NCBI RefSeq assembly: GCF_003853705.1
Contig: NZ_QTQI01000027.1
Coordinates: 42,120 to 106,119 of the forward strand
Direction of reading: 5' to 3'
Source: Burkholderia sp. Bp8992
Lineage (GTDB): Bacteria > Pseudomonadota > Gammaproteobacteria > Burkholderiales > Burkholderiaceae
DNA: 64,000 bases
Part shown: positions 13,490-30,244 of the stretch, piece after piece
How the letters are laid out: each line of letters begins with the position of its first letter
Position numbering within the stretch: position 1 is the stretch's first letter
Notes under the pieces: model-generated
What the model was told of the DNA's origin: nothing
Databases searched by the model: none
What the model saw: the letters and a program-made list of their open reading frames with translations, nothing else
Made by a program: the position numbers and the translations under genes

Positions 13490-14308
13490 TCAGCGTTTCG
13501 GCGCCGCGTCGATCATCCACTCGTGCGCGGGATCGTTCTTGAACGCCCATGCGCGGCTTGGGCCCGCCATCACGTTCAGGTAGTACAGGTTGTAGCCGTG
13601 CGGAGCTACGACCGGATGGTAGCCGCGCGGCACCATCACGACGTCGTGGTTCTCGACGGCGCACGCTTCGTCGAGGCTGCGGTCGTCCGTGTACACGCGC
13701 TGGAACGCGAAGCCCTGCGGCGGATCGATCCGGTGATAGTAGGTTTCCTCGAGCGACGTCTCGTCGGGCGCCGCGTCGCGATCGTGCTTGTGCGGCGGAT
13801 AGCTGCTCGAATGGCTGGCCGGCGTGACGACTTCGACGACGAGCAGCCGGTCGGCCGCCGGGTTGTCGCCCATCAGGATGTCGCAGACGTAGCGCGTGTT
13901 GGTGCCTTGCCCGCGCACCGACCGGCGCATCCGTTCGCCGTCGAGGCGCCGCACGGGCTTGTCGCCGCTCGCGTACGGCGCGGTGCACAGCGCGATTTCC
14001 GCATCGCGCGTCGCGACCAGCGTGACGGTCTTGCCGCCCGGCACGTACAGTGCGTCCGGCGACACCTCGTCGAAGACGCTGTCGCGCTTGCCGAGCGCAT
14101 CGTAGGTTTCGCCGTCGACTTCGGCACGCACGGTGCCCGTCAGCACGACCACGCACAGCTCGCGCGTGCCGGTGTCGAGCGTTTCGGTGTCACCGGCCTT
14201 CAGGCGCAGCGCACGAAAGCCGACGTGCTTCCAGCCGGCCGATTCGGGCGTGACGTTGCAGATTTCACGGTCGGCCGAGGCCTTGACCAGCAGGGGAGAA
14301 ATCGTCAT
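13490..14308 (-). CDS. iolB: 5-deoxy-glucuronate isomerase
   Basis: IolB converts 5-deoxy-D-glucuronate to 2-deoxy-5-keto-D-gluconate in inositol breakdown. The 272-residue protein is a bicupin. The metal-ligand region SSYPPHKHD (about residues 168-176), the following ETSLEETYYHRIDPPQGFAF and the QRVYTDDRSLDE segment are characteristic of IolB. It lies 52 bases downstream of iolE in the order iolC-iolD-iolE-iolB on the minus strand. Length is normal. Confidence 0.96.
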   Translation of the reverse strand: MTISPLLVKASADREICNVTPESAGWKHVGFRALRLKAGDTETLDTGTRELCVVVLTGTVRAEVDGETYDALGKRDSVFDEVSPDALYVPGGKTVTLVATRDAEIALCTAPYASGDKPVRRLDGERMRRSVRGQGTNTRYVCDILMGDNPAADRLLVVEVVTPASHSSSYPPHKHDRDAAPDETSLEETYYHRIDPPQGFAFQRVYTDDRSLDEACAVENHDVVMVPRGYHPVVAPHGYNLYYLNVMAGPSRAWAFKNDPAHEWMIDAAPKR

Positions 14309-14360
14309 GGGATGGGGCTCCGCAATAGGGTAGGGCTCACGCGTTCACGCGCTCATGCAC

Positions 14361-15290
14361 TCATGCACTCAACCGGTCGACGATCGCGCGCAGCGACTCG
14401 TAGCCCTTTTTCGCATACGCATAGCTCGGCGCGACGGCCGGATCCTGCTCGGCCTCGACGACGAGCCAGCCTTCGTAGCCGGCGTCCTTCAGCGTGCGCA
14501 GCGTCGCGTCGTAATCGAGCGCGCCGTCGCCGGGCACCGTGAACGTGCCGTTGATCACGCCGTTCAGGAAGCTCCAGCCGCCGTTGCGCGCCTGCGTGAC
14601 GACCTGCGGCCGCACGTCCTTGCAATGCACGTGCGCGACGCGCGCCACGTGCTTCTTCAGCAGCGTGACGGGGTCGGCCGCGCCGCCGAAATAGGCATGG
14701 CCCGTGTCGAACAGCAGGAACACCTTCGCCGGGTCGGTCAGCGCCATCAGGCGGTCGACGTCGTCGGGCGACTCGACGTACGCGCCCATGTGGTGATGGT
14801 AGGCGAGCTTGATCCCGTACGTGTCGAGCAGGTGTGCGCCGAACGCGTCGAGGCGTGCCGCATAGCGCCGCCAGGCGTCGTCGTCGACGAAGCGCGGCCG
14901 TTTCGCGACCGGCGTGTCGATGCTGCCCTGGATCGTGCCCGCGCATTCGCCGTAGACCACGACCTTCACGTCGTTGAACTGCAGCTTCGTCAGGTGCGCG
15001 CGGCAGCGCTCGATCTCCGCCGCGACCGCATCGGCGTCGCTCATGCCCGGCGCGACTTCCGCGAGGAAGCCCGAATACCAGCCCGACACGCACACGAGGC
15101 CGAACTCGGCGAGCTTCGCCTTCAGCTCGGGGCCCGTCTTCGGAAACTTGTTGCCGAGCTCGAAGCCCGCATAGCCGATTTCGGCGCCTTCCTTCAGTGC
15201 CGTTTCGAGCGGTGTCTCGCCGCCGAGCGACGGCAGGTCGTCGTTCATCCACGACAGGGGATTGATGCCGATGCGGACGTTCCAGCTCAT
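14361..15290 (-). CDS. iolE: Myo-inosose-2 dehydratase
   Basis: IolE dehydrates 2-keto-myo-inositol (scyllo-inosose) to the diketo intermediate used by IolD. The 309-residue protein is a xylose-isomerase-like TIM barrel beginning MSWNVRIGINPLSWMNDDLP, the conserved IolE N-terminus. Metal-site segments YHHHMGAYVE, FDTGHAYFGG and VHCKDVRP are present. The start at 15290 is confirmed by this family N-terminus. It lies 65 bases after iolD. Two more proteins of the same fold are encoded elsewhere in the locus (23230 and 25262); this one is the best match to IolE. Confidence 0.96.
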   Translation of the reverse strand: MSWNVRIGINPLSWMNDDLPSLGGETPLETALKEGAEIGYAGFELGNKFPKTGPELKAKLAEFGLVCVSGWYSGFLAEVAPGMSDADAVAAEIERCRAHLTKLQFNDVKVVVYGECAGTIQGSIDTPVAKRPRFVDDDAWRRYAARLDAFGAHLLDTYGIKLAYHHHMGAYVESPDDVDRLMALTDPAKVFLLFDTGHAYFGGAADPVTLLKKHVARVAHVHCKDVRPQVVTQARNGGWSFLNGVINGTFTVPGDGALDYDATLRTLKDAGYEGWLVVEAEQDPAVAPSYAYAKKGYESLRAIVDRLSA

Positions 15291-15355
15291 GAGGTGCTTC
15301 CTTGGTTCGGATGATGTGGGTGCAGGGCGTGGTCTTCGTGGCGCAGCGTGCGCGC

Positions 15356-17239
15356 TCAGCGCCGCTGCCGCGTTTTCGCGTCGAGATACGCGCGGTGTGC
15401 CGCTTCGACGCCGGTGCGTTCGGATACCTGCGGCAACGCGACCTCCCACCACGCGCCGCCGTCGTCGGTCGTGCGCCGGTGCGTGGTGTCGATCACGAGC
15501 ACCTGGCTCTTCTTCGCCGCGCGGGCGCGTGTCATCTCGTGACGCAATTCGACGACGTCGCGCACGTGCACGGCTTCGGCGCCCATCGCACGCGCATGCA
15601 TCGCGAAATCGATCGTCGAGCGCTCGCCGCCTTCGGGCACGCAGTCGTCGAGCATGTTGTTGAAGCTTGCGCCGCCGCAATTGAGTTGCAGCCGCTCGAT
15701 GCAGCCGTAGCCGCGGTTGTCGAGGATCACGACGATGATCTTGCGGCCGAGCATCACCGACGTCGCGAGCTCCGCGTTGAGCATCATGTACGAGCCGTCG
15801 CCGACGATCACGATCACTTCGCGCTCGGGCCGCGCGAGCTTCGCGCCGAGGCCGCCTGCCACTTCGTAGCCCATGCACGAGTACGCATAGTCCATGTGGT
15901 AATTGCCCGGCACGCCGCTGCGCCACAGCTTGTGCAGTTCGGCCGGCAGCGTGCCGGCCGCGCAGACGACGAGGTCGTCGCGTGCGCTGTCGCGTCCGGC
16001 GTCGGCCGCGGAGTCGCGCACCGCGCCGATCACTTCCGCGTCGTACGGCAGCGTGTCCTTCGGAATTCGTGTGGTCAGCTCGGTCACGCGTGCGTTCCAC
16101 GCGGCGGCCTGATCGCGGTTCGCGGCCGTCCACGCGGGATCGGCGTGCCAGCCGGCCAGCGCGGCCGACAACTGGCCGAGGCCCGTGCGCGCATCGGCAA
16201 TGAGCTGCCGGCCGCGTTTCTTGCCGGCATCGAACGGCTGCACGTTCAGGCTCAACAGCGTCGCGTCGCCGTAGAGCGCATGCGAGCCGGTCGTGAAATC
16301 CTGCAGCCGCGTGCCGACCGCGAACACCACGTCGGCCTGCGCGGCGGCACGGTTGGCGGCGGGCGAACCCGTCACGCCGATCGAGCCGAGGTTCAGCGGG
16401 TGATCCCACGCGAGGCTGCCCTTGCCGGCCTGCGATTCGGCGACGGGCACGCCGTGCGTGTCGGCGAACGCACGCAGCGCGTCCCACGCCTGGCTGTACA
16501 GCACGCCGCCGCCGGCGACGATCAGCGGCTTCTTCGCGGCCTTCAGCACGTCGAGCGCATCGGCGAGTTCGAGCGCGTCGGCCGGCGGCCGGCGCATCCG
16601 GATCACCGGCGGCGCGAAGAAATCCTCGGGCCAGTCGTATGCGAAGGTCTGCACGTCCTGCGGCAGCGCGAGACACACGGGGCCGCACTGCGCGGGATCG
16701 GTCATCACCTGGATCGCGCGCGGCAGAGCGACGAGCAGTTGCTCGGGCGACGTGATGCGGTCGAAGTAGCGCGTCACGGGCCGGAAGCAGTCGTTCGCGC
16801 TGACGTCGCCCTGTTCGAAATCTTCCACCTGCTGCAGCACGGGGTCGGGCAGCCGCGACACGAACACGTCGCCGGGCAGCAGCAACAGCGGCAGCCGGCC
16901 GACGTGCGCGAGCGCGGCCGACGTCAGCATGTTGGTCGCGCCGGGGCCGATGCTCGACGTCGCGGCCATCATCCGCTGGCGGAAGTTCGCTTTCGCGAAC
17001 GCGACGGCCGCATTGGCCATCCCTTGCTCGTTGTGCGCGCGGAAGGTCGGCAGCCGGTCTTTTTCGGCATGCAGCGCTTCGCCGAGCCCGGCCACGTTGC
17101 CGTGGCCGAAGATCGCGAACACGCCGCCGCAGTACGGCAGGATTTCGGTGCGGCCGTCGGGCTGGACGACTTCGGCGCGCAGGGCGGCCAGGTAGCGTAC
17201 GAGCGCCTGGCTGACGGTCAGTCTCACGGTGGTGGTCAT
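15356..17239 (-). CDS. iolD: 3D-(3,5/4)-trihydroxycyclohexane-1,2-dione acylhydrolase
   Basis: IolD is the thiamine-diphosphate enzyme that opens the inositol ring to 5-deoxy-glucuronate. The 627-residue length is normal. The N-terminal domain has the ThDP-activating glutamate in HNEQGMANAAVAFAK. The C-terminal ThDP-binding motif begins VGDGSYMMLNAE and ends at DNRGYG. The start MTTTVRLTVSQALVRYLAAL is the family N-terminus and maps to 17239; longer in-frame starts upstream overlap iolC and are rejected. It sits 46 bases after iolC. Confidence 0.96.
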   Translation of the reverse strand: MTTTVRLTVSQALVRYLAALRAEVVQPDGRTEILPYCGGVFAIFGHGNVAGLGEALHAEKDRLPTFRAHNEQGMANAAVAFAKANFRQRMMAATSSIGPGATNMLTSAALAHVGRLPLLLLPGDVFVSRLPDPVLQQVEDFEQGDVSANDCFRPVTRYFDRITSPEQLLVALPRAIQVMTDPAQCGPVCLALPQDVQTFAYDWPEDFFAPPVIRMRRPPADALELADALDVLKAAKKPLIVAGGGVLYSQAWDALRAFADTHGVPVAESQAGKGSLAWDHPLNLGSIGVTGSPAANRAAAQADVVFAVGTRLQDFTTGSHALYGDATLLSLNVQPFDAGKKRGRQLIADARTGLGQLSAALAGWHADPAWTAANRDQAAAWNARVTELTTRIPKDTLPYDAEVIGAVRDSAADAGRDSARDDLVVCAAGTLPAELHKLWRSGVPGNYHMDYAYSCMGYEVAGGLGAKLARPEREVIVIVGDGSYMMLNAELATSVMLGRKIIVVILDNRGYGCIERLQLNCGGASFNNMLDDCVPEGGERSTIDFAMHARAMGAEAVHVRDVVELRHEMTRARAAKKSQVLVIDTTHRRTTDDGGAWWEVALPQVSERTGVEAAHRAYLDAKTRQRR

Positions 17240-17285
17240 CGTCGGTCGATAGAGAGGAGTCGGGTGGTCGTCACGGGCACGGGCA

Positions 17286-19244
17286 TCAGGCTGCGGCAGC
17301 GGCGCGCGCGGCCGCACGGCGGCCGAGCCACGCGTCGACCAGTTGCGTGAAGTTGCCGGCGACTTCGTCGATCAGCGCCTGGTCGTCGATGCGGCCGGCG
17401 AACCAGTTCAGCGATGCATCGGCCCACAGCGTGCGCCCGACCATGAAGCCCTTGACGATCGGGTTGGTTGCCGAGCGGAAGCTGTCGACGAGGTATTGCA
17501 GCGGCTGGTTCAGGCCGAGGATCACCGCGCCGCGGCAGTGCGGGTCGCGCTCGGCGATCAGCGCGGCGAGCCGGGTCCAGCCGTCTGCGCTCAGCGGCGT
17601 GAGCTTCCACCATTCGGGCTTCACGCCGAGGTTGTAGAAGCGCGCGACCGTGCGCAGCACCGCGTCGTCCTCGGTGCCGGCCGGCGTGACCGCGCGCGGC
17701 GGAATCATTTCGAGCAGCAGCTCGTTGCCGCTGGCGCGCGTGGCTTCCCACAGTTCCAGCACGCGCTGCTCCTGCTCGACGCGCAGGTCGACGTCGTCGT
17801 CCGGGTGATAGTGGACGAGGCATTTCACGACCTGTTCGGTCGGCCAGTGCGTGAGCGACGAGCCGACCGAGCGCGTCTCGTCGAAGCGCAGCGGCCGCGA
17901 GCCCGGCAGCTCGACCGGGCGGCCGACCCACCAGCCGCGCCCGGTGGCCGACGCGAGTGCGTCGCTGCCGTACGCGCCGCCGTCGATCAGCACGCCGACC
18001 TGGCCTTCGAGATGACGCTCGCGCTCGACCTGCTCGACCGCGCGCACGAGCAGCCGCTTCAGCGTCTTGATGCGCGCTTCGTCCGCGCCGGCCTGCACCG
18101 CGAGTTCGTAGAACTGGCTGCGATGGTCGAACGCCATCACGCACAGGTCGTCCCAGTCGCGGCGGGGCACCGTCACGCGGTGCAGGTGGGCGAGCGTGCG
18201 GTCGGCATCGACCACCGGATTGCGGCTGCCGTCGAACCAGTGTGCGAGTTCGGCCGGCGTCGGCATCGCGGCCGAGCACGCGTGGCGCGACACGACGATC
18301 GCGCCGCACGCGTTCGCGATGCGCGTCGCGTCGGCCCAGTCGCTCCCGCGCAGCAGCCCCGACAGCAGGCCCGACAGGAATGCGTCGCCCGCGCCGAGCA
18401 CGTTGAGGACCTCGACGCGCTCGCCGAGGAAGGTCGGTGCAGCGTCGATGCCGGCCGGAATGTCGCCTTCGATCACGCAGCAGCCGAGCGCGCCGCGCTT
18501 GACGACGAGCGTCGCGTTCGTGATCGCGCGCACCGCCTGCAACGAGCCGATCAGGTCGTGCGGCACGCCGCCCGCGATCAGGAATTCCTCTTCGGTACCG
18601 ACCAGCAGGTCGAATTCGCCGAGCACCTGCTGCAGCTGCCGCGTCACCTGCGCATCGGGCACGTAGCGGTTCTCGCCGGCGCCGCGCGCGGTGAGTCCCC
18701 ACAGCACCGGCCGATAGTCGATGTCCAGGATGCGGACGGCACCGTGGCGGCGCGCATACGTCAACGCAGTCAGCGACGCCTCGCGCGTGCCCGGCGTCGA
18801 CAGGTGCGTGCCGGTGATCGCGAGTGCGCGGCAACCGGCGATGAAGTCCTCGCTGATCTCGTCGGCGCGCACGGCCATGTCCGCGCAGTTCTCGCGCACG
18901 AACAGCAGCGGGAAGGTGTCGCGATCCTTCAGCCCGAGCAGCACCAGCGCGGTGAGGCGCTCACGGTCGGTCTGCAGCTGGCTCGTGTCGCAGCCTTCGC
19001 GCTCGAGCGTCTCGCGCAGGAAGCGGCCCATCTGCTCGTCGCCGACGCGCGAGATCATCGCGGTCTTCAGCCCGAGCCGCGCGACGCCGAACGCGACGTT
19101 GCCCGACGAGCCGCCGAGATACATCTGGAAGCTGCGCGCGTCCTCGAGGCGGCTGCCGTACTGCTGCGCATAGAGATCCACGGCCACGCGGCCGAGGCAG
19201 GCGAGATCGATGGGGCGGTCACTCGGAAAGTTCAGCTGGCTCAT
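17286..19244 (-). CDS. iolC: Bifunctional 5-dehydro-2-deoxygluconokinase / 5-dehydro-2-deoxyphosphogluconate aldolase (IolC-DUF2090 fusion)
   Basis: A 652-residue two-domain protein. Residues 1 to about 335 are a PfkB-family sugar kinase (IolC) with N-terminal GGSSGNVAFGVARLG and the catalytic-base motif VLNVLGAGDAFLSG. Residues from about 345 to the end form a DUF2090 TIM barrel, taken to replace the separate IolJ aldolase that splits the phosphorylated product into DHAP and malonate semialdehyde. No separate iolJ is visible in the window, which fits the fusion. I chose ATG 19244; a GTG at 19256 is four codons upstream. It is the first gene of the minus-strand iol operon and faces the transporter operon. 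Confidence 0.94.
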   Translation of the reverse strand: MSQLNFPSDRPIDLACLGRVAVDLYAQQYGSRLEDARSFQMYLGGSSGNVAFGVARLGLKTAMISRVGDEQMGRFLRETLEREGCDTSQLQTDRERLTALVLLGLKDRDTFPLLFVRENCADMAVRADEISEDFIAGCRALAITGTHLSTPGTREASLTALTYARRHGAVRILDIDYRPVLWGLTARGAGENRYVPDAQVTRQLQQVLGEFDLLVGTEEEFLIAGGVPHDLIGSLQAVRAITNATLVVKRGALGCCVIEGDIPAGIDAAPTFLGERVEVLNVLGAGDAFLSGLLSGLLRGSDWADATRIANACGAIVVSRHACSAAMPTPAELAHWFDGSRNPVVDADRTLAHLHRVTVPRRDWDDLCVMAFDHRSQFYELAVQAGADEARIKTLKRLLVRAVEQVERERHLEGQVGVLIDGGAYGSDALASATGRGWWVGRPVELPGSRPLRFDETRSVGSSLTHWPTEQVVKCLVHYHPDDDVDLRVEQEQRVLELWEATRASGNELLLEMIPPRAVTPAGTEDDAVLRTVARFYNLGVKPEWWKLTPLSADGWTRLAALIAERDPHCRGAVILGLNQPLQYLVDSFRSATNPIVKGFMVGRTLWADASLNWFAGRIDDQALIDEVAGNFTQLVDAWLGRRAAARAAAAA

Positions 19245-19388
19245 ATCACGTGTCACGCTCGCGGCCGGCGGTCGGCGTTGCCGGCAGATTAGGGGACCGA
19301 TCCTGTGGCGGCTGTCCGCAGCGGGTGCTGCACGACGCGAGACTGCCTGCCGCGGGGAATCGGGCTACGGACGCAGTCTAGACTTTTT

Positions 19389-19402
19389 GGAAATCCAGTT
19401 CC
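19389..19402. promoter_or_regulatory. Candidate IolR (RpiR-type) operator 1
   Basis: GGAAATCCAGTTCC is a perfect GGAA-N6-TTCC. From memory this is the motif reported for the RpiR-type inositol repressor of rhizobia. An RpiR-type gene lies at 27684 in the same locus. Confidence 0.65.
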
Positions 19403-19418
19403 CTAGGTGAAATCACGT

Positions 19419-19432
19419 AGAAATAAATTTCC
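19419..19432. promoter_or_regulatory. Candidate IolR operator 2
   Basis: AGAAATAAATTTCC matches GGAA-N6-TTCC at seven of eight defined positions. It begins exactly 30 bp after operator 1, about three helical turns, so both sites face the same side of the DNA. Confidence 0.5.
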
Positions 19433-19560
19433 AAATTTTCGAGGAAGTGATCTACAGTTTCATCCGGATGCTTCAGTCCCGATCGGACCAGATCGGACTC
19501 GGCCCGGCGGCGCGCAACGCGCCGTCTTCCGCCCCCCGGAGATGAGGAGACAGATTGATC

Positions 19561-20487
19561 ATGAAGACCAAGCTGATGGCCGTCGCGGCCGCCGCGATCC
19601 TGGCTGCGCCGCTCGCGCATGCCGAGAAGATCGGCGTGACGATGGCATCGTTCGACGACACGTTCCTGACCATCCTGCGCAACAGCATCGCCGATTCGGC
19701 GAAGAAGGACGGTGCGACGGTGCAGATCGAGGACGGCGGCAATGACGTCGGCAAGCAGTTGAGCCAGGTCCAGAACATGATCGCGCAGAAGGTCGACGCG
19801 ATCATCGTGAATCCGGTCGATACCGACGCGACGCCGAAGATCACGAAGATGGTGACCGCGGCGAAGATCCCGCTCATCTACGTGAACCGCAAGCCGGTCG
19901 ATTTCGACAAGCTGCCGGCCGGCGTCGCGGTCGTCGCCTCCGACGAAAAGCAGTCGGGCACGCTGCAGGCGCGCCAGGTGTGCAAGCTGCTCGGCGGCAA
20001 GGGCGACCTCCTGGTGCTGATGGGCGAGCTGTCCAACGAATCGGCGCGCGCCCGCACCAAGGACATCGAGGACGTGATCGCGACGAAGGATTGCTCGGGC
20101 ATGAAGATCGTCGACAAGCGCGAAGGCAAGTGGAGCCGCACGCAGGGCCAGGACATCACGATGAACTGGCTGAGCTCCGGGACGAAGTTCGACGCGATCG
20201 TGTCGAACAACGACGAGATGGCGATCGGCGCGATCAACGCGCTGAAGGCCGCGCGCAAGCTGACACCGAAGACGGTCGTCGCGGGCATCGACGCGACGCC
20301 CGACGGGCTCGCGGCGATGAAGGCCGGCGAGCTGAAGGTGTCGGTGTACCAGAACGCGACCGGGCAGGGCGCGCAGGCCGTGGCGGCCGCGCTGAAGCTC
20401 GCGAAGAAGCAGCCGGTCGACCGCTACGTGAACGTGCCGTTCGAGCTCGTGACGCCCGAGAACATGAACCAGTACGCCAAGCACTGA
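19561..20487 (+). CDS. Inositol ABC transporter periplasmic substrate-binding protein (ribose-type)
   Basis: A 308-residue periplasmic binding protein of the ribose/xylose family (Peripla_BP_4). The signal peptide is evident: [20 protein letters not shown] followed by A, with cleavage expected after AHA (residue 21). The mature protein starts [20 protein letters not shown]. An ATPase and a permease follow, and the iol operon is divergent, so myo-inositol is the likely ligand. Ligand identity is inference from context. I chose ATG 19561; the in-frame TTG two codons upstream is less likely. Regulation by the RpiR-type protein through the 19389/19419 sites is proposed. Confidence 0.92.
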
Positions 20488-20555
20488 CCGGCGGTCCGTT
20501 GAACTGCGCGGGCCCGGCGCGACCGGGTTCGCGCGCGATTTGTCGAGGAACGTCC

Positions 20556-22133
20556 ATGTTTACAGCCAGGGTCGCGCGCCCGATGGCCGGCGGCGATACA
20601 CCGACCGCCTCGTCCGGCGGATCGTCCGCCACGCCGGCTTCTCCCGCGGCCGACTGCGTGCTCGAGGTGCGCGGCGTCGGCAAGTCCTTCCCCGGCGTCG
20701 TCGCGCTCGACGGCGTGCAGTTCCGCGTGCGCCGCGGCACCGTTCATGCGCTGATGGGCGAGAACGGCGCGGGCAAGTCCACGCTGATGAAAATCATTGC
20801 GGGCGTCTACACGCCCGACCAGGGCGAGATCCTGATCAACGGCGAGCCGGTCGTGCTGAACGGTCCGCTCGATGCGCTCGACCGCGGGATCGCGATGATC
20901 CACCAGGAACTGAACCTGATGCCGTACATGACGGTCGCGGAGAACATCTGGATCCGCCGCGAACCGAAGAACCGCTTCGGCCTGATCGATCACGCCGAGC
21001 TGCGCCGCCGCACGGCCGCGCTGTTCGAGCGGCTGTCGATCGACATCGATCCGGAAACCGATGTGCGCACGCTGACGGTCGCGAGCCGCCAGATGGTCGA
21101 GATCGCGAAGGCCGTGTCGTTCGACTCGGACGTGCTGATCATGGACGAGCCGACCTCCGCGCTGACCGACAAGGAAGTCACGCACCTGTTCCGGATCATT
21201 CGCCAGCTGCGCGAGCAGGGCAAGGGCATCGTCTACATCACGCACAAGATGAACGAGCTGTTCGAGATCGCCGACGAGTTCTCGGTGTTCCGCGACGGCA
21301 AGTACATCGGCACGCACGCGTCGAGCGACGTCACGCGCGACGACATCATCCGCATGATGGTCGGGCGCGAGATCACGCAGATGTTCCCGAAGGAAGACGT
21401 GCCGATCGGCGACGTCGTGCTGTCGGTGAAGGATCTCTGCGTCGACGGCGTGTTCCGCGACGTGAGCTTCGAGCTGCGCGCCGGCGAAATTCTCGGCGTC
21501 GCGGGCCTCGTCGGCTCGGGGCGCTCGAACGTCGCGGAAGCGCTGTTCGGCGTCGTGCCGGCCACCTCGGGCGAGATCCGCATCGACGGCAAGCCGGTGC
21601 GGATCGCGACGCCCGCGCAGGCGATGAAGCATGGCATGGCGTTCCTCACCGAGGATCGCAAGGATTCCGGCTGCTTCCTGAATCTCGACCTGCTCGCGAA
21701 CATGGAAGCGGCGGTGCTCAGCAACCGCTACGTGAAGTTCAACTTCGTGCAGCACGCGCAATTGAAGCGCGACTGCGAGGAAATGAGCCGGATGCTGCGC
21801 GTGAAGTCGCCCGGGCTGCACGAGGAAATCCAGAACCTGTCGGGCGGCAACCAGCAGAAGGTGCTGATCGGCCGCTGGCTCCTCACGCAGCCGCGCATCC
21901 TGATCCTCGACGAACCGACGCGCGGCATCGACGTCGGCGCGAAGGCCGAGATCCACCGGCTCGTCAGCGCGCTCGCCGGCAAGGGTGTCGCGGTGCTGAT
22001 GATCTCGTCGGAAATGCCGGAAGTGCTGGGGATGAGCGATCGCGTGATGGTGATGCACGAAGGGCGCATGACCGGCATCGTCGATCGCAAGGACGCCGAC
22101 CAGGTCCGCATCATGGATCTCGCGTCGCGCTGA
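20556..22133 (+). CDS. Inositol ABC transporter ATP-binding protein (two NBDs)
   Basis: A 525-residue sugar-ABC ATPase with two fused nucleotide-binding domains (RbsA/MglA type). NBD1: Walker [10 protein letters not shown] near residue 69 and Walker [16 protein letters not shown]2: degenerate Walker [10 protein letters not shown], signature LSGGNQQK and Walker [13 protein letters not shown]. The Lys-to-Arg change in NBD2 is normal for this family. The first 35 residues are a low-complexity Ser/Ala/Pro leader. It starts at ATG 20556 with GAGGAA upstream, 68 bases after the binding-protein gene. Confidence 0.94.
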
Positions 22134-22160
22134 GCCGAAACAAGATTGGAGACAACTGAA

Positions 22161-23186
22161 ATGGGCAACCTGAACCCGGTCGCGGATGCGCAGACCATGA
22201 CACTCAAGTCGCGGCACACGAAATGGCCGCCCGAGCTGAGCATCTTCCTCGTGCTGGTCGGCATCAGCCTGTTCTTCGAGATCGTCGGCTGGATCGTCGT
22301 CGGCCAGAGCTTCCTGTTCAATGCCGAGCGGCTCGAGATCATCGTGCTGCAGATGGCCGTGATCGGCATCATCGCGGTCGGCGTGAACCTCGTGATCATC
22401 ACCAGCGGGATCGACCTGTCGTCGGGGTCGGTCGTCGCGGCCGCGGCCGTCGTGTCGGCGAGCCTCGCGCAGGTGTCCGATTTCCCGCGCGCGGTGTTTC
22501 CGCACCTCACTGATCTGCCGATCATCTGGCCCGTGCTGGCCGGCGTGTGCGTCGGGCTGCTGGTCGGGCTGCTGAATGGCTCGCTGATCGCGATGACGGG
22601 CATCCCGCCGTTCATCGCGACCCTCGGCACGATGGTCGCCGCGCGCGGCTTCGCGAAGTGGTTCACCAACGGGATGCCGGTGTCGATGCTGACCGACCAG
22701 TTCGCGGCCATCGGCGCGGGCGCCAATCCGGTGATCATCTTTGTCGTGATCGCCGCGATCTTCCACGTCGTGCTGCGCTACACGCGCTTCGGCAAGTACA
22801 CCTACGCGATCGGCGCGAACCGCCACGCGGCCGTCGTGTCGGGCATCAACGTCACGCGGCACCTGATCTTCGTCTATGCGATCGCGGGCCTGTTGAGCGG
22901 CATCGCGGGCACCGTGACGGCCGCGCGTGCGATTTCCGGCCAGTCGGGCATGGGCGTGATGTACGAGCTCGATGCGATCGCGGCCGTCGTGATCGGCGGC
23001 ACGTCGCTGTCGGGCGGCCTCGGCCGTGTGACAGGCACTGTGATCGGCGTGCTGATCCTCGGCGTGATGACGTCGGGCTTCACGTTCATCCGCATCGACG
23101 CGTATTACCAGGAGATGGTGAAGGGCGCGATCATCGTCGCGGCCGTGATCGCCGACCAGTACCGCAACAAGAAGTCGCGTCGCTGA
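22161..23186 (+). CDS. Inositol ABC transporter permease (RbsC-like)
   Basis: A 341-residue permease of the ribose/xylose/galactoside class, with about eight to ten hydrophobic segments. Family marks are VNLVIITSGIDLSSGSVVA near residue 75 and the cytoplasmic loop AVVIGGTSLSGGLGRVTGT near residue 275. It begins at ATG 22161 with TTGGAGA as Shine-Dalgarno and follows the ATPase by 27 bases. It is the membrane channel of the proposed inositol importer. Confidence 0.94.
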   Translation: MGNLNPVADAQTMTLKSRHTKWPPELSIFLVLVGISLFFEIVGWIVVGQSFLFNAERLEIIVLQMAVIGIIAVGVNLVIITSGIDLSSGSVVAAAAVVSASLAQVSDFPRAVFPHLTDLPIIWPVLAGVCVGLLVGLLNGSLIAMTGIPPFIATLGTMVAARGFAKWFTNGMPVSMLTDQFAAIGAGANPVIIFVVIAAIFHVVLRYTRFGKYTYAIGANRHAAVVSGINVTRHLIFVYAIAGLLSGIAGTVTAARAISGQSGMGVMYELDAIAAVVIGGTSLSGGLGRVTGTVIGVLILGVMTSGFTFIRIDAYYQEMVKGAIIVAAVIADQYRNKKSRR

Positions 23187-23229
23187 GCGCGCGCGTGAGC
23201 CCCGAATCTCCCTTCACGAAGGACACCCG

Positions 23230-24141
23230 ATGAAGATCGCGCTGGACCCCTACATGATTCGCCACCTGCCGCTCGACCGGCTGCCGCACGCGGTGGCCGA
23301 GCTCGGCTACGACCAGATCGAGCTGTCGCCGCGCAGCGACTTTCTCGACTGGTGGGTGATGCCGCGTGCGACGCGCGAGCGCATGGCCGCGTTCCGCCAG
23401 GCGATGCGCGCGAGCGGCGTCGGCCTCGCGTCCCTGCAGCCGATGTACCGCTGGGCGAGCCCGTTCGAGGACGAGCGGCAATGGGCCGTACGCTGCTGGA
23501 AGAAGGCGATCGAGGTGGCGGTCGAGATGGAGTGCACGCTGATGGTGTCGGAGTTCGGCCGTGGTGCGTCGCCCGAGCGTTCGGTCGGCGAGCGGCCGGG
23601 CGCGAACCCGAAGGAGCTGTGCGAGGCCGCGTGGTTCCGCTCGATGGACGAACTGCTGCCGATTCTCGAGCGCGAACGCATCGTGCTGTCGGTCGAGCCG
23701 CATCCGGAAGACTGGATAGAGCAGCTGCAGCCGGCGATCGACATCGTCACGAACCTCGCTTCGCCGTCGCTGAAGCTGTCGTATATCGCGCCGCACACGT
23801 TCTACTACGGCGACGACATGGCCGCGATGATCGCGGCCGCCGCGCCGATCCTCGCGCACGTGCGCGTAGCCGACACGTTCGACCACCGCAAGAGCAGCCA
23901 GCTGCGCTACATCGTGAACCCGCCCGGCTCGAACCAGATCCGCGTGCACCAGCACCTCGACATCGGGCAGGGCGAGATCGACTGGGACGTGTTTTTCCGC
24001 GCGCTCGGCGCGGCCGGCTTCGACGGCGTGATGTCGTCGTGCGTGTTCGCGTGGGAAGACCGCGCGGAAGCGTCGTCGCGCTACATGCGCGACGAGATCC
24101 AGCGCTACGTCGATCGCCATTTCGATCGCGCCGCGCGCTGA
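23230..24141 (+). CDS. Sugar phosphate isomerase/epimerase family protein in iol locus (IolH-like position)
   Basis: A 303-residue xylose-isomerase-like TIM-barrel protein (AP endonuclease family 2 fold). It begins MKIALDPYMIRHLPLDRLPH, has SVEPHPEDW near residue 155 as a likely metal-binding strand, and HQHLDIGQGEIDW near residue 240. It differs clearly from IolE at 14361. It is the fourth gene of the transporter operon, 43 bases after the permease. Similar genes in other iol loci are called iolH or iolI (inosose isomerase), but the sequence does not let me choose, so I leave the symbol blank. Confidence 0.82.
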   Translation: MKIALDPYMIRHLPLDRLPHAVAELGYDQIELSPRSDFLDWWVMPRATRERMAAFRQAMRASGVGLASLQPMYRWASPFEDERQWAVRCWKKAIEVAVEMECTLMVSEFGRGASPERSVGERPGANPKELCEAAWFRSMDELLPILERERIVLSVEPHPEDWIEQLQPAIDIVTNLASPSLKLSYIAPHTFYYGDDMAAMIAAAAPILAHVRVADTFDHRKSSQLRYIVNPPGSNQIRVHQHLDIGQGEIDWDVFFRALGAAGFDGVMSSCVFAWEDRAEASSRYMRDEIQRYVDRHFDRAAR

Positions 24142-24207
24142 CCGCTGACCGATTGCTGACCGGCGCGGCACGGGCCGCGCCGCTGATGAACGACTGGAGA
24201 CTCGTAG

Positions 24208-25221
24208 ATGACCTTGCAAATCGGCGTGATCGGCTGCGGCGCGATCGGCCAGGACCATATCCGCAGACTGACCCGCACGCTGTCCGGTGCGCGCGTCGTG
24301 GCCGTCAACGACATCGATCCGCAGCAGGCGCGCGACGCGGTGACGAAATACGGGCTCGACGCCGAGATCTACGGCGACGGCCACGAAGTGGTCGCGGCCG
24401 CCGACGTGCAGGCCGTGCTCGTCACGTCGTGGGGGCCGACGCACGAAGCGTTCGTGCTCGACGCGATCGCGCACGGCAAGCCGGTGTTCTGCGAGAAGCC
24501 CTTGGCCGTCACGGCCGACGGCTGCATGCGGATCGTCGAAGCCGAAGTCGCGCACGGCAAGCGGCTCGTGCAGGTCGGCTTCATGCGGCCGTACGACGAA
24601 GGCTATCGCGCGCTGAAGCGCGTGATCGACAGCGGCCAGATCGGCGCGCCGCTGATGCTGCATTGCGCGCACCGCAACCAGTCGGTCGGCGAGCGCTACA
24701 CGACCGACATGGCGATCACCGACACGCTGATCCACGAACTCGACGTGCTGCGCTGGCTGCTCGGCGAGGATTACACGAGCGCGCAGGTCGTCTATCCGAA
24801 GAATACGCGCCATGCGAGCGCGCATCTCGCCGATCCGCAGATCGTGCTGCTCGAAACCGCGAGCGGCGTGCGCATCGATGTCGAGATCTTCGTGAACTGC
24901 CAGTACGGCTACGACATCCAGTGCGAGGTGGTCGGCGAGCAGGGCATCGCGAAGCTGCCCGATCCGCCGGCCGTCGGGCTCAAGCATGCGGCGCGGCAGT
25001 CGGTCGAGATCATGACCGACTGGAAGGAGCGCTTCATCGCGTCGTACGACGTCGAGCTGCAGGCTTTTATCGACGGCGTGCGGCAGGGCGCGCTGACCGG
25101 CCCGTCCGCGTGGGACGGCTATGCGGCGGCGGTCGCGGCCGACGCATGCGTGCGGGCACAGCAGAGCGGCGCGGTCGAGGCGATCGCGATGGCCGATCGT
25201 CCCGCGTTCTATCGCGGCTGA
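24208..25221 (+). CDS. iolG: Inositol 2-dehydrogenase (Gfo/Idh/MocA family)
   Basis: A 337-residue Gfo/Idh/MocA oxidoreductase expected to oxidise myo-inositol to scyllo-inosose with NAD+. The Rossmann motif is [12 protein letters not shown] (residues 6-17). The catalytic-lysine motif CEKPLAV lies near residue 95, and the active-site D-x3-H is in [13 protein letters not shown]. The sequence [15 protein letters not shown] is characteristic of IolG-type proteins. It sits inside the transporter operon between the two TIM-barrel genes, starting MTLQIG at 24208. A second family member at 26228 is more distant, so I give iolG to this one. Confidence 0.92.
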
Positions 25222-25261
25222 CCCACGGCTTGCCTGCCGCTTGCTTACCGGACCGACCGAC

Positions 25262-26188
25262 ATGACGATGAAGATTGGCTGCGCCCCGTGCTGCTGGGGC
25301 GTCGACGACGTGAAGAACCCGCATCTGCCGCCGTGGCGGCACGTGCTCGCCGAGGCCGCGCAGGCCGGCTACTCGGGCATCGAGCTCGGGCCGTACGGCT
25401 ACATCCCGCTCGACCTCGACGTGGTGAGCGCCGAGCTCGACCGCCAGCGCCTGAGCATCACGGCCGGCACGATCTTCGACGATCTTGTATCGCCGGAGAA
25501 CCTGCCGAACCTGCTGCGCCAGACGCGCGACATCTGTGCGCTGATCACGCGGCTGCCGAAGCTGCCGACGCAGGACGGCCAGCGCTACGCGGCGCCGTAC
25601 CTGGTCGTGATGGACTGGGGCCACGAGGAACGCGACTACGCGGCCGGCCACGGCGACCGCGCGCCGCGTTTGTCCGACGAGCGCTGGGCGCGGATGGTCG
25701 ACCATATCCGGCAGATCGCGACGATCGCACGCGACGAGTTCGGCGTGCGCGCGGTGATTCATCCGCACGCGGGCGGCTATATCGAGTTCGCGGACGAGAT
25801 CGACCGGATCGTCGGCGATATTGCGGCCGACACGGCCGGCCTGTGTCTCGACACCGGCCACCTGTACTACTCGGGCATGGACCCGGAATCGTGGTTGCGC
25901 CGCCATGCGGCGCGTCTCGACTACGTGCATTTCAAGGACATCGACGCAGCGGTATACGACGCGGTGATGGGCGAGCACATCGCGTTCTTCGCCGCCTGCG
26001 CGCGCGGCGTGATGTGCCCGATCGGCACCGGCGTGCTCGACTACCCGGCGATCCGCCGCGCGCTCACCGACATCGGCTATGCCGGCTACATCACGATCGA
26101 GCAGGAGCGCGACCCGCGCAACGCCGGCACGAGCCTGCGCGACGTTGCCGCGAGCCGCGCGTTTCTCGCGTCGGCCGGCTTTGCATGA
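25262..26188 (+). CDS. Sugar phosphate isomerase/epimerase family protein (IolE-like TIM barrel)
   Basis: A 308-residue TIM-barrel protein of the xylose-isomerase-like superfamily. Segments typical of metal-dependent members are VIHPHAGGYIEF (near residue 160), LCLDTGHLYYSG (near 195), YVHFKDID (near 220) and ITIEQERDP near the C-terminus. These resemble IolE more than the protein at 23230 does, so it may be a second inosose dehydratase or an inosose isomerase. It starts ATGACGATGAAG at 25262, 40 bases after iolG. Confidence 0.82.
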   Translation: MTMKIGCAPCCWGVDDVKNPHLPPWRHVLAEAAQAGYSGIELGPYGYIPLDLDVVSAELDRQRLSITAGTIFDDLVSPENLPNLLRQTRDICALITRLPKLPTQDGQRYAAPYLVVMDWGHEERDYAAGHGDRAPRLSDERWARMVDHIRQIATIARDEFGVRAVIHPHAGGYIEFADEIDRIVGDIAADTAGLCLDTGHLYYSGMDPESWLRRHAARLDYVHFKDIDAAVYDAVMGEHIAFFAACARGVMCPIGTGVLDYPAIRRALTDIGYAGYITIEQERDPRNAGTSLRDVAASRAFLASAGFA

Positions 26189-26227
26189 CCCAAGAACCAC
26201 TGAACCCGCACCAGGAACACCACCATC

Positions 26228-27400
26228 ATGATTGACGGACAGATTCTGCTTGGACATTCGATTCGCTGGGGCATGGTCGGCGGCGGGCTCGGCAGCCAGA
26301 TCGGCTACAGCCACCGGTCGGCCGCGCTGCGCGACGGCAGCTTCCAGCTGGTTGCCGGCGCATTCGATATCGATCCCGAGCGCGGCCGCCAGTTCGGCGT
26401 GAAGCTCGGCGTCGCGGCCGAGCGCTGCTATCCCGACTACGCGACGATGTTCGACGCCGAGGCACGCCGCCCGGACGGCATCCGTGCGGTATCGATCGCG
26501 ACGCCGAACAACACGCACTTCGAGATTTGCCGCGCCGCGCTGAACGCGGGGCTGCACGTGGTCTGCGAGAAGCCGCTGTGCTTCACGACCGAGGAGGCCG
26601 AGGCGCTGCAGCGGCTGGCGGTCGAGAAGAACCGGATCGTCGGCGTCGCGTACGGCTACTCGGGACACCAGATGATCGAGCAGGCGCGCGAGATGATCGC
26701 GCGCGGCGACCTCGGCGAGATCCGCATCGTGCAGATGCAGTTCGCGCACGGCTTCCACAGCGAAGGCGTCGAGGCCGCGAGCGCGGCCGCGCGCTGGCGC
26801 GTCGATCCGAAGTTCGCGGGCCCGAGCTACGTGCTCGGCGACATCGGCACGCATCCGCTGTACATCTCCGAAGTGATGGTGCCCGAGCTGAAGATCAAGC
26901 GGCTGATGTGTTCGCGGCAGAGCTTCGTGAAGAGCCGTGCACCGCTCGAGGACAACGCGTTCACGATCATGGAGTACGACACCGGCGCAGTCGGTTACGT
27001 ATGGTCGAGCGCGGTGAACGCCGGCTCGATGCACGGCCAGAAGGTGCGCGTGATCGGCTCGAAGGCGAGCATCGAATGGTGGGACGAGCATCCGAACCAG
27101 CTGCGTTACGAAGTGCAGGGGCAGCCCGCGCAGGTGCTCGATCGCGGGATGGGCTACCTGTATCCGCAGGCGCTGCGCGAGGACCGCATCGGCGCCGGGC
27201 ATCCGGAAGGGCTGTTCGAGGCATGGTCTAACCTCTACGCGCGCTTCGCGCTCGCGATGGATGCGGCCGATCGCGGTGACGCCGAGGCCCTGAAGCAGAT
27301 CCGTTATCCGGACGTTCACGCAGGCGTGGAAGGGGTCCGCTGGGTCGAGAACTGCGTGCGCTCGGCCGACGCGGGCAGCGTGTGGGTCGACTATCGCTGA
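26228..27400 (+). CDS. Second Gfo/Idh/MocA oxidoreductase of the iol locus
   Basis: A 390-residue NAD(P)-dependent oxidoreductase. The Rossmann loop GMVGGGLGSQIG is at residues 15-26, CEKPL is near residue 117, and a GDIGTHPLYISEVM segment near residue 205 carries the expected active-site Asp and His. It is about 50 residues longer than IolG and has an extended N-terminus (MIDGQILLGHSIRW). The position as last gene of the transporter operon suggests it oxidises another inositol isomer or an inositol derivative; scyllo-inositol is a reasonable guess but not shown. Confidence 0.85.
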   Translation: MIDGQILLGHSIRWGMVGGGLGSQIGYSHRSAALRDGSFQLVAGAFDIDPERGRQFGVKLGVAAERCYPDYATMFDAEARRPDGIRAVSIATPNNTHFEICRAALNAGLHVVCEKPLCFTTEEAEALQRLAVEKNRIVGVAYGYSGHQMIEQAREMIARGDLGEIRIVQMQFAHGFHSEGVEAASAAARWRVDPKFAGPSYVLGDIGTHPLYISEVMVPELKIKRLMCSRQSFVKSRAPLEDNAFTIMEYDTGAVGYVWSSAVNAGSMHGQKVRVIGSKASIEWWDEHPNQLRYEVQGQPAQVLDRGMGYLYPQALREDRIGAGHPEGLFEAWSNLYARFALAMDAADRGDAEALKQIRYPDVHAGVEGVRWVENCVRSADAGSVWVDYR

Positions 27401-27409
27401 GCAGGGCAG

Positions 27410-27455
27410 GGCCGGCGGCGGGGGGCGACGTCACGTTGCGCACCGACCGCCGGCC
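27410..27455 (+). terminator. Weak hairpin after the inositol transporter operon
   Basis: GGCCGGCGG (27410-27418) pairs with CCGCCGGCC (27447-27455) across a 28-base loop, ten bases after the operon's last stop. There is no T-run, so this is only a possible terminator. The rest of the 283-base gap (27401-27683) holds GGACAATCGCTTCC (27496-27509), one mismatch from GGAA-N6-TTCC, and nothing else I recognise. Confidence 0.35.
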
Positions 27456-27683
27456 TCGGTACACGCCCTAATCTTTACGACGCCGCGAGCGCGTTGGACA
27501 ATCGCTTCCAGTCTTGCCGTGGAGCGTGTGCAAGTGATGATCGAGCGCGTGGGAGCGAGCGTGCGGCGCGGGCCGTGCCGCAAACGTGTTTAAATTCGCC
27601 CTTCATGCATGGTTCCAGTCGAGCCCCGGGCCGCGTCCGCCAGCGTCGCGTGCGCATCGGGGCCGTCAACTTCGCGCTATCCG

Positions 27684-28568
27684 ATGAGTTCATCCGAGAA
27701 ACCTCCCGCCACCGTCGAGCAGTTCCTGCAGCACCTGACGCAGGAGTACGACTGCCTCAGCAATCGCCTGAAGGTGATTGCGCGCCACGTGGAAACGCAT
27801 CGGGACCAGCTTGGCCTGGAAGGCATCCAGTCGCTCGCGGAGGCGTGCGGCGTCCAGCCGTCGGCCGTCGTGCGCTTCGCGAAGCACTTCGGCTTCTCCG
27901 GCTTCTCCGAGATGCAGCGGCTGTTCCGCGAAGGGCTCGCGCAGCAGATTGCGCCGGGGCGTGCGTACAACCTGCGGCTGCGCGACGTGATCGAAGCGGG
28001 CTCGTCGAGCCTGCAGCCCGAACAGATCGCCGACGAATTCATCAAGGGCAGCATTGCCGGGATGCAGCAGCTGCGGCAGACGCTCGATTCGCAGGCGCTC
28101 GCGCAGGCCGTCGATCTGCTCGCCGACACGCAGGCGATCTGGATTGCCGGCTCGCGGCGCGCGTTTCCGATCGCCGTGTATCTCGACTATGCGTTGCAGC
28201 ACACGGACAAGCGCATCGGCCTGTTCAGCGCGCTCGGCAGCATGCACCTCGGGCAGATCCGCTCGGTGCGCGAGGGCGACGTGATGATCGTGATTTCGTT
28301 CATGCCGTATGCGGAGGAAACCGTGCAGGTCGCGCAGCTGGCCGTGCAGCGCGGCGCACGCGTGATCGCGATCACCGACAGCCGGATGAGCCCGCTCGCG
28401 CGGGAGGCCGAGGTGATGCTGATGGTGCAGGACAGCGAGACGTTCGGCTTTCGCGCGCTGACGGCCACGATGGGTCTCGCGCAGAGCCTGTTCGTCGCGC
28501 TCGCGTACCGGCTCGAGCTGTCGTACCTGCCGACCGCCGACGGCGCGCACGGCTCGAAAGCCGGCTGA
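27684..28568 (+). CDS. iolR: RpiR family transcriptional regulator, probable inositol repressor
   Basis: A 294-residue RpiR-type regulator. The N-terminal HTH_6 domain spans about residues 10-85 (SLAEACGVQPSAVVRFAKHF is the recognition region). A SIS sugar-phosphate-binding domain runs from about 130 to 270 (IWIAGSRRAFPIAVYLDYAL). I chose ATG 27684 (MSSSEKPPATVEQFLQHL) because the upstream in-frame ATG adds a low-complexity leader; neither has a strong Shine-Dalgarno. It lies between the transporter operon and iolA. By family precedent it represses the iol genes until an inositol intermediate binds the SIS domain. The symbol is by function and context. Confidence 0.88.
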   Translation: MSSSEKPPATVEQFLQHLTQEYDCLSNRLKVIARHVETHRDQLGLEGIQSLAEACGVQPSAVVRFAKHFGFSGFSEMQRLFREGLAQQIAPGRAYNLRLRDVIEAGSSSLQPEQIADEFIKGSIAGMQQLRQTLDSQALAQAVDLLADTQAIWIAGSRRAFPIAVYLDYALQHTDKRIGLFSALGSMHLGQIRSVREGDVMIVISFMPYAEETVQVAQLAVQRGARVIAITDSRMSPLAREAEVMLMVQDSETFGFRALTATMGLAQSLFVALAYRLELSYLPTADGAHGSKAG

Positions 28569-28576
28569 CCTCGACT

Positions 28577-28621
28577 GCCGGCGTGCCGCCCGCGACTTCG
28601 ATCGGCGGGCGGCACGCCGGC
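28577..28621. terminator. Strong bidirectional hairpin between iolR and iolA
   Basis: A perfect 17-bp stem GCCGGCGTGCCGCCCGC / GCGGGCGGCACGCCGGC with an 11-base loop fills the 57-base gap between two convergent stops. The strand symmetry suits both genes, though a T-run is lacking. Confidence 0.7.
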
Positions 28622-28625
28622 GGGC

Positions 28626-30146
28626 TTACTTCGCGGTCGGCATCGCGAATTCGGCACCCTTGCCGATGCTCGACGACCAGCGCTGCATCACCGATTTCTG
28701 GCGCGTGTAGAAGCGCACGCCTTCCTCGCCGTACGCGTGCATGTCGCCGAACAGGCTCTTCTTCCAGCCGCCGAAGCCGTGCCACGCCATCGGCACGGGG
28801 ATCGGCACGTTGATGCCGACCATGCCGACCTGGATGCGCTGCGCGAATTCGCGTGCGATGCCGCCGTCGCTCGTGAAGCACGACACGCCGTTGCCGAATT
28901 CGTGCGCGTTGATCAGGTCGACCGCTTCGCCGAAATCCTTCACGCGCACGCAGCCGAGCACGGGCCCGAAGATCTCTTCCTTGTAGATCCGCATGTCGGG
29001 GCGCACGTGATCGAACAGCGTGCCGCCGGTGAAGAAGCCGGCCTCGCGGCCCGGCACGCGCAGCCCGCGGCCGTCGACCACCAGTTGCGCGCCTTCGTTC
29101 ACGCCTTGCTCGATATAGCCTTCGATGCGCTTCAGCGCCTCGCCGGTGACGATCGGGCCCATCTCGACTTCCGGCGACATGCCGTCGCCGATCACCAGCC
29201 GGCGTGCGCGCTCGGCCACCGCCGGCACGATCTTGTCTGCCACGTCGCCGACCAGCACCGCGATGCTGATCGCCATGCAGCGCTCGCCGGCCGAGCCGTA
29301 CGCGGCGCCGATCAGCGCGTCGACGGCCTGTTCGAGGTTCGCATCGGGCATCACGACCAGGTGGTTCTTCGCGCCGCCGAGCGCCTGCACGCGCTTGCCC
29401 GACTGCACCGCGCGCTGCTGCACGTAGGCCGCGATCGGCGTCGAGCCGACGAAGCTGACGGCCTGCACGTCGGGGTGGTCGAGCAGCGCGTCGACCGCGC
29501 CCTTGTCGCCCTGCACGACGTTGAACACGCCGGCCGGCAGCCCGGCCTGCGTGAGCAGGTCGGCAATGAACAGCGCGGCCGACGGGTCGCGCTCGCTCGG
29601 CTTCAGCACGAACGTGTTGCCCGTCGCGATCGCGACCGGGAACATCCAGCACGGCACCATGCACGGGAAGTTGAACGGCGTGATGCCCGCGACGACGCCG
29701 AGCGGCTGGCGCATCGTCCAGTTGTCGATGCCGGTGCTGACCTGGTCGGTGAAGTCGCCTTTCAGCAGTTGCGGCACGCCGCATGCGAATTCGATGATGT
29801 CGATGCCGCGCGCGACTTCGCCCTGCGCGTCGGAGAACACCTTGCCGTGCTCGGCCGTGATGATTGCCGCGAGCGTGTCGCGGTGTTCGTTCATCAGCTG
29901 CAGGAAGCGGTGCAGCACGCGTGCGCGGCGGATCGGCGGCGTCGCGGCCCAGGCGGGGAACGCGGCGTGGGCCGACGCGACGGCCCGCTGCACTTCGCTG
30001 TCGTCGGCGAGCGCGACGCGGCGCACCGCGCGGCCGAGCGACGGGTTGAGGACGTCCTGGAAGCGGCCGCTGCGGCCGGCAACGGGCGCGCCGTCGACAT
30101 AGTGGCCGACGTCGGCGTCGGACGTATACGCGGGAACCGGATTCAT
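28626..30146 (-). CDS. iolA: CoA-acylating methylmalonate/malonate-semialdehyde dehydrogenase
   Basis: A 506-residue aldehyde dehydrogenase of the MmsA/IolA type, which turns malonate semialdehyde plus CoA and NAD+ into acetyl-CoA and CO2, the last step of inositol catabolism. Diagnostic segments are [20 protein letters not shown] near residue 160, [10 protein letters not shown] near 255, and the catalytic cysteine in [10 protein letters not shown] (about Cys290). The C-terminal [17 protein letters not shown] segment is also typical. The same enzyme class serves valine breakdown (mmsA). No mmsB is adjacent and the iol locus is, so I favour iolA. A LysR gene is divergent upstream. Confidence 0.9.
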
Positions 30147-30230: not shown

Positions 30231-30244
30231 TTCAGAATTCTGAA
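30231..30244. promoter_or_regulatory. Perfect palindrome in the iolA / LysR divergent region
   Basis: TTCAGAATTCTGAA is a 14-bp perfect palindrome ending 10 bases before the LysR ATG and 85 bases upstream of iolA. It is a candidate operator for LysR autoregulation. On the minus strand TAGACT (30185 down to 30180) could serve as the iolA -10. Confidence 0.55.

Follow-up and report, generated by a model that had tools for sequence, protein, structure and literature searches.

A conserved 44-bp composite with two putative IolR operators between divergent inositol genes of Burkholderia

The gap between the divergent iolC and inositol transporter genes of Burkholderia sp. Bp8992 contains a conserved 44-bp stretch, which very probably holds two docking sites for the RpiR-type regulator IolR. 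The two sites, S1 and S2, flank a dyad, named C, which is as invariant as the sites themselves. Alphaproteobacteria are already known to have this regulator family, the motif and an iolC promoter with two sites, according to the accessible parts of the respective papers (PMC2597717, PMC8877191), and the flanked dyad is what is new here. A regulatory code known mainly from alphaproteobacteria is thereby extended to Burkholderia and its relatives, with a likely regulator named and a layout that can be tested. The earlier note had proposed the twin sites alone as the IolR operator; judged from the alignments, they are only part of a larger conserved composite, and the dyad between them, a further site upstream of rpiR (S3) and the flanking -10 boxes had been missed. 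In the following, the window is the whole stretch of 64,000 nucleotides that was analysed, and the positions of its features are collected in Table 1.

The inositol locus and its twin sites

The inositol locus spans approximately positions 13490-30146 of the window. Profile searches place iolC (with DUF2090), iolD and iolB on the minus strand, and a sugar-type substrate-binding protein, an iolG-type dehydrogenase, further TIM-barrel and Gfo/Idh enzymes and the RpiR-type regulator on the plus strand; a CoA-acylating methylmalonate-semialdehyde dehydrogenase (iolA/mmsA) follows after rpiR on the minus strand. The fused iolC scores 1030.8 bits against NCBIfam NF047869 (cut-off 600) and matches the Pfam domains PfkB and DUF2090, and the iolG-type dehydrogenase scores 555.7 bits against NF052679 (cut-off 540). 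The labels iolE, transporter ATPase, permease and LysR (30255) are putative and come from our reading of the open frames.

The regulator gene that the earlier note had placed in the locus is indeed there, with its ATG at 27684 as given, with HTH_6 and SIS domains and with iolB, iolC, iolD, iolG and the CoA-acylating dehydrogenase nearby. The proteins nearest to it come from Burkholderia sp., B. seminalis, B. lata and B. cenocepacia, among others, species which we take to be the cepacia group. The IolR of Bacillus subtilis is a DeoR-type protein, which shares its name and pathway with the regulator of the window and differs from it in family: Pfam detected no DeoR domain in the window regulator and assigned HTH_6 (RpiR) instead. 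The Caulobacter IolR is likewise described as not homologous to that of Bacillus (PMC2597717, accessible text).

Table 1. Positions of the genes, sites and predicted promoter elements in the window
Feature	Position	Strand	Remarks
iolC fused to DUF2090 (kinase/aldolase)	17286..19256	-	heads the minus-strand iol genes
Predicted -10 of iolC promoter, TAGACT	19375..19380	-	8 bp from S1; position inferred
S1 GGAAATCCAGTTCC, proposed IolR operator	19389..19402		covers -35 region of predicted iolC promoter
C CTAGGTGAAATCACGTAG, imperfect dyad CTAGGTGA-AA-TCACGTAG	19403..19420		abuts S1, overlaps S2 by two bases
S2 AGAAATAAATTTCC, proposed IolR operator	19419..19432		overlaps -35 region of predicted transporter promoter
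Predicted -10 of transporter promoter, TACAGT	19453..19458	+	20 bp after S2; position inferred
Sugar-type ABC substrate-binding protein	19555..20487	+	Pfam Peripla_BP_4; heads the transporter/iolG gene row
iolG-type bifunctional inositol/D-chiro-inositol dehydrogenase	24208..25221	+	in the transporter gene row
S3 GGACAATCGCTTCC, proposed weaker IolR site	27496..27509		one mismatch; 175-188 bp upstream of rpiR ATG
rpiR (proposed iolR), RpiR-type HTH_6 + SIS regulator	27684..28568	+	Pfam, frame 27609-28568

The gap between iolC and the transporter row is 298 bp long, with divergent genes on both sides. Its description as an AT-rich island applies to the core (19376-19458, 36% GC), not to the whole gap, which has 61% GC. 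Within it, a perfect GGAA-N6-TTCC site and a copy whose single mismatch is the first base stand where they had been reported, 30 bp apart from start to start. At 10.5 bp per helical turn, this spacing amounts to 2.9 turns and falls slightly short of three, and the two sites may be bound cooperatively.

Among 10,000 dinucleotide shuffles of the gap, a perfect site arose in 1.2%, and a perfect site together with a second one of at most one mismatch in 0.24%. Taken alone, the rarity of the pair is suggestive, not conclusive, because the bare motif is common: the window contains 23 sites with at most one mismatch against 11 expected, and one 7.1-Mb relative contains 107 perfect copies genome-wide (22 for the reversed control pattern). 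The motif count alone was therefore discarded as evidence. A further perfect copy, GGAAGGGCTGTTCC, lies at 43490-43503, far from the iol locus, and is probably a chance occurrence.

The reality of the twin sites is decided by their conservation among relatives, on which the earlier note had made its proposal depend. A match over the gap was present in 48 of 65 genomes of the genus, all of which were aligned. S1 is perfect in 47 of the 48, the exception being L027, in which S1 is damaged and the rest of the composite retained; S2 has the same one-mismatch form in all 48 and is perfect in none of them, and the 44-bp length from S1 to S2 is kept in every one. The variable bases of S1 are limited to 19395-19398, the last four of its six spacer bases, and 19402, each differing in 1-6 of 48 rows; in the flanks, at 19300-19356 and 19480-19491, bases differ in up to 44 rows. 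Within the 551 aligned bp, the longest run with no more than one differing row extends from 19398 to 19435 and comprises the right half of S1, C and S2. The mismatch of S2 is not a sign of decay, because its first-position A is invariant and the same form (AGAAAT...ATTTCT) stands just upstream of rpiR in four of ten distant loci. Among the 17 genomes without a match over the gap, G058 (82% complete) encodes an RpiR that is 95% identical, but its gap and iolC are unmatched, and the other 16 lack an rpiR ortholog, most of them having a divergent iol locus.

The motif beside rpiR in other inositol loci

Other iol loci of the genus encode an iolC that is 54-61% and an RpiR that is about 42-47% identical to those of the window, and such loci also exist in other genera of the Burkholderiaceae; iolC was found in 101 of 249 family genomes, 72 of them outside the genus. 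From these, 58 places were assembled, namely 15 of the genus's 16 divergent iolC places, another three that hold an RpiR paralogue, and 40 from other genera (from 39 of the 72 genomes). An rpiR match was present in 56 places, and the 450 bp upstream of it were searched. A perfect GGAA-N6-TTCC lies within this distance in 50 of the 56 Burkholderiaceae loci, against 0.36 expected from shuffles; the positive loci are related and do not represent 50 independent events. Because the sites were selected for GGAA and TTCC, these columns are necessarily perfect, and the informative ones lie outside the searched motif: a T precedes the site in 51 of 51 cases, an A follows it in 50, the first three spacer places are A, A and T in 50, 49 and 50, and the last three vary among the 51 sites upstream of rpiR. 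The motif that the earlier note had named as that of rhizobial IolR is documented with an RpiR-type IolR in Caulobacter (PMC2597717, accessible text), and it tracks rpiR in other iol clusters.

No perfect site was found upstream of rpiR in six of the 56 loci (L063, L064-L066, L117 and L135), among which L117 and L135 have a site with one mismatch. L064-L066 served as negative controls, with no GGAA site beside RpiR paralogues that are 54-58% identical to the window's and with no other iol gene found near the paralogue. In these three Burkholderia genomes, the second RpiR is closer to that of the window than their own iol-linked RpiR. Outside the family, three alphaproteobacterial iol loci (n = 3; 91 plasmid records were matched by RpiR) encode an RpiR 39-41% identical to the window's, and the site beside rpiR is perfect in two of them and has one mismatch only in the third.

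In many Burkholderiaceae loci (L119-L156), a conserved AAATTTCAT element stands about 14-22 bp before the single GGAAAATnnnTTCC site upstream of rpiR, and it is possibly a half-site or a part of the promoter. As a counterpart of C it was rejected, since neither its spacing nor its sequence fits.

Upstream of rpiR, the best site in 29 named Burkholderia loci is perfect in seven, and has one mismatch in 16, two in five and three in one; in the 23 loci with at most one mismatch, it starts 185-198 bp before the rpiR ATG. The S3 region could be aligned in 20 relatives, four of which read TTGGAAAATNNTTTCCA, like the family consensus upstream of rpiR. From these positions, autoregulation of rpiR through S3 is considered likely, though weaker. 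At the other genes, the motif was found upstream of iolC as a perfect and a one-mismatch copy, and the inositol transporter promoter shares these same sites with it, through the divergent row that starts at 19555. Inside that row, the scan detected no site at the start of iolG (24208), and a one-mismatch match lies at 23985 within the preceding gene. In the mmsA/lysR gap, at iolA, no site with at most one mismatch was found, and therefore the proposed regulon would be incomplete; a site at iolA, as reported for Caulobacter, is not taken to be required in every species.

Element C and the predicted promoters

In C, seven of the eight half-site bases are symmetric, and the element is identical in 47 of the 48 relatives, with one differing base in the remaining one. 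A pattern taken from Burkholderia alone, allowing one mismatch, matched one copy in each of five complete genomes of relatives, its reversed control giving 1, 1, 0, 0 and 0 matches. Among 51 non-Burkholderia loci (829 kb), which had been collected through the RpiR search, C was found at two or fewer mismatches three times, always in the transporter gap: in Ideonella (L186), Delftia (L187) and a member of the Comamonadaceae (L210). None was found within two mismatches in the 58 Burkholderiaceae places of other types, most of which have a single site.

With relaxed patterns, written after viewing the sequences concerned, the succession of a GAAA...TTTC-type site, a C-like dyad and a second site is recognized in six of six distant transporter gaps (L186, L187, L201, L202, L210 and L213), at offsets of 31, 30, 30, 30, 30 and 29 bp, respectively. 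By the strict motif, both sites have at most one mismatch only in L186 and L187, and two mismatches per site in the other four. The C-like dyad is better than shuffles in five of these loci (P ≤0.0015) and no better in L213 (P 0.365). In Delftia tsuruhatensis (L187, 1-1400), S1-C-S2 is retained although the divergent iolC/iolD/iolE side is reduced to a short iolD/iolE remnant. This locus has an extra perfect site 29 bp further on, which places its outer sites 59 bp apart; the two motifs of the Caulobacter iolC promoter are separated by the same distance (PMC2597717, accessible text), which may be a coincidence. A search of the order with the substrate-binding protein gave 12 of 399 genomes at the cut-off used. 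One of the loci, L239, has a composite with the same core sequence as Delftia L187 and was not counted as independent, and nine others (L240-L248, with substrate-binding proteins 60-62% identical) have a GAAA...TTTC-type site with two or fewer mismatches about 190-220 bp before the protein match, with no C within two mismatches.

The composite is framed by two predicted -10 boxes, neither of which varies among the 48 relatives. On the iolC side, TAGACT, TACAGT or TAATCT can be recognized by eye 7-8 bp from S1 in the window and the six distant loci; the transporter side has, also by eye, TACAGT or TATAGT at 19-20 bp after S2 in the window and four loci. In L202 and L210, the transporter -10 lies only 9 bp after S2, a shift of about one helical turn. 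A scan of the window for consensus sigma-70 promoters found none, and both promoters lack consensus -35 boxes. If transcription is assumed to start 6-7 bases beyond the end of each -10 box, the centre of C would fall near -42 to -44 for iolC and near -53 for the transporter (near -42 in L202 and L210). C would then lie where class II activators bind. S1 and S2 would overlap the -35 regions expected at a 17-bp spacing, which is the layout of a repressor blocking two promoters.

Proposed regulation and alternative readings

The GGAA-N6-TTCC motif is known for the RpiR-type IolR of alphaproteobacteria, and the closest likeness is with IolR of Caulobacter crescentus (CC1297), an HTH_6 and SIS regulator within an iol locus that uses the same palindrome (PMC2597717, here and below for its accessible text). 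As here, the motif occurs twice in the Caulobacter iolC promoter and also at the inositol ABC transporter; mutation of one of the two iolC copies derepresses, and mutation of the second has no effect in the medium used. Unlike the arrangement in the window, the two Caulobacter motifs are 59 bp from each other, at 104 and 45 bp upstream of iolC (PMC2597717), whereas S1 and S2 are separated by 30 bp, enclose a dyad and lie in a divergent promoter that both operons share; no separate site was found at the start of iolG, and none at iolA. In Sinorhizobium meliloti, an RpiR-like IolR is described as repressing the iol genes, with sites upstream of iolY, iolR and iolC, and DKGP has been proposed as its effector; that system is alphaproteobacterial and has a different operon layout (PMC8877191, in its accessible part, citing Kohler 2011). 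The same work of Kohler 2011 on S. meliloti IolR is cited in the accessible part of an Ensifer aridi paper. RpiR proteins can be tetramers, and NanR of Streptococcus pneumoniae, of the same family, reads a near-palindrome of 18 bp with GAAA and TTTT arms, its tetramer having been proposed to bridge to a second half-site; it differs in activating sialic acid genes and in that its DNA affinity is unchanged by the effector (PMC12713135, a preprint, accessible text). In the accessible portion of the open full-text literature searched, no description of a Burkholderia IolR operator or of element C was found.

Comparison of sequences supports the IolR reading of the sites well, and repression by IolR through S1 and S2 is considered probable with good confidence. 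According to this proposal, S1 and S2 would be the operators of the RpiR-type regulator encoded at 27684-28568. When no inositol intermediate is present, IolR dimers, or possibly one tetramer across the 30 bp, would occupy both sites, cover part of the -35 region of each of the two divergent promoters, iolC and transporter, and thus repress both operons. A sugar phosphate of the pathway, by analogy with rhizobial IolR 2-deoxy-5-keto-gluconate-6-phosphate, would bind the SIS domain and release the block, and S3 would let IolR tune its own gene. C would be a second functional element, serving at these two promoters, whose -35 boxes are non-consensus, either as an activator site or as a stretch of the IolR operator. 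Against repression by IolR stand the low specificity of the bare motif, the form of S2, which is never perfect, the silent second motif of Caulobacter (PMC2597717), the two mismatches per site in four of the six distant composites, the two or three mismatches of S3 in six of 29 loci, the lack of an iolA site, and L027, where S1 is damaged yet the rest is kept.

That the conserved block is a mere pair of divergent core promoters, with incidental matches to the motif, is very improbable. In its favour, predicted -10 boxes lie within the block, and GAAA and TTTC words arise more readily in AT-rich DNA; however, a perfect and a near site coincide in only 0.24% of shuffles, the same motif precedes rpiR in 50 of 56 other loci where shuffles predict 0.36, the half-sites hold while the spacer of S1 varies, and the Caulobacter mutation data (PMC2597717, accessible text) speak against it. 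The role of C itself is more evenly contested. A separate, dedicated activator could bind it, at about -42 relative to iolC and, for the transporter promoter, at about -42 or -53, with IolR at S1 and S2 mainly excluding this activator in a competition switch, a reading to which we give a real chance, though a little below even. It would account for a C that is as invariant as S1 and S2, abuts the one and overlaps the other, for promoters that lack consensus -35 boxes, and for the absence of C from the 58 other, mostly single-site Burkholderiaceae loci; the two distances from S2 to the transporter -10 (19-20 or 9 bp) lie about one turn apart, as expected if a protein on S2 or C must face RNA polymerase. 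However, no candidate activator gene accompanies C in every case, with a single copy of C per genome the activator would have one target only, the start sites on which these positions depend are predicted, and C in L213 is no better than shuffles (P 0.365).

Alternatively, C may be an integral part of the operator of IolR: a tetramer bound at S1 and S2 would bend or contact the DNA between them, and S1-C-S2 would form one operator of 44 bp. This reading is given a chance only slightly lower than that of the activator, and some other role of C is also considered. The register of S1, C and S2, kept in seven loci (offset 29-31), argues for it, and one C per genome fits a dedicated local regulator. 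In the same direction points rpiR, which is the only known regulator gene near all seven composites, the six distant ones having been found via rpiR. However, the half-site of C, CTANGTGA, is unlike GGAA or GAAA, and IolR sites elsewhere do without C, because the 58 Burkholderiaceae loci lack it at two or fewer mismatches and 50 of them have a perfect site by rpiR. A more specific joint claim is that the 44 bp form a composite switch of Burkholderiales inositol loci, in which a dedicated activator on C, acting in a class II-like manner, is shared by the divergent promoters and excluded by an IolR tetramer bridging S1 and S2, both operons switching together from one protein-sized platform whose register is kept by helical phasing; taken as a whole, it is rather unlikely. 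If C is an activator site, inositol use would be controlled in two ways without any sign of this in the locus, and if it is part of the IolR operator, it would make an unusual, extended RpiR site.

Regulators other than RpiR were also considered as binders of C. A LacI-family regulator (Peripla_BP_4 domain) adjoins rpiR in several inositol loci of Comamonadaceae, for example at 8802-9881 of L210. As a general binder of C it was rejected, for tblastn found none in the window, L186, L187 or L201 (a 10-kb contig), all of which have C. No other regulator gene was tied to C, non-LacI types having been scanned in part of the genes of L186, L210 and L213. The LysR-like regulator (30255) was judged unlikely as well, its own gap having a different conserved palindrome. 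This palindrome, TTCAGAATTCTGAA, is perfect and lies at 30231-30244 in the mmsA/lysR gap; it is intact in 18 of the 19 relatives aligned (20 fetched), with one base differing in L067, and is probably the LysR-like regulator's own operator.
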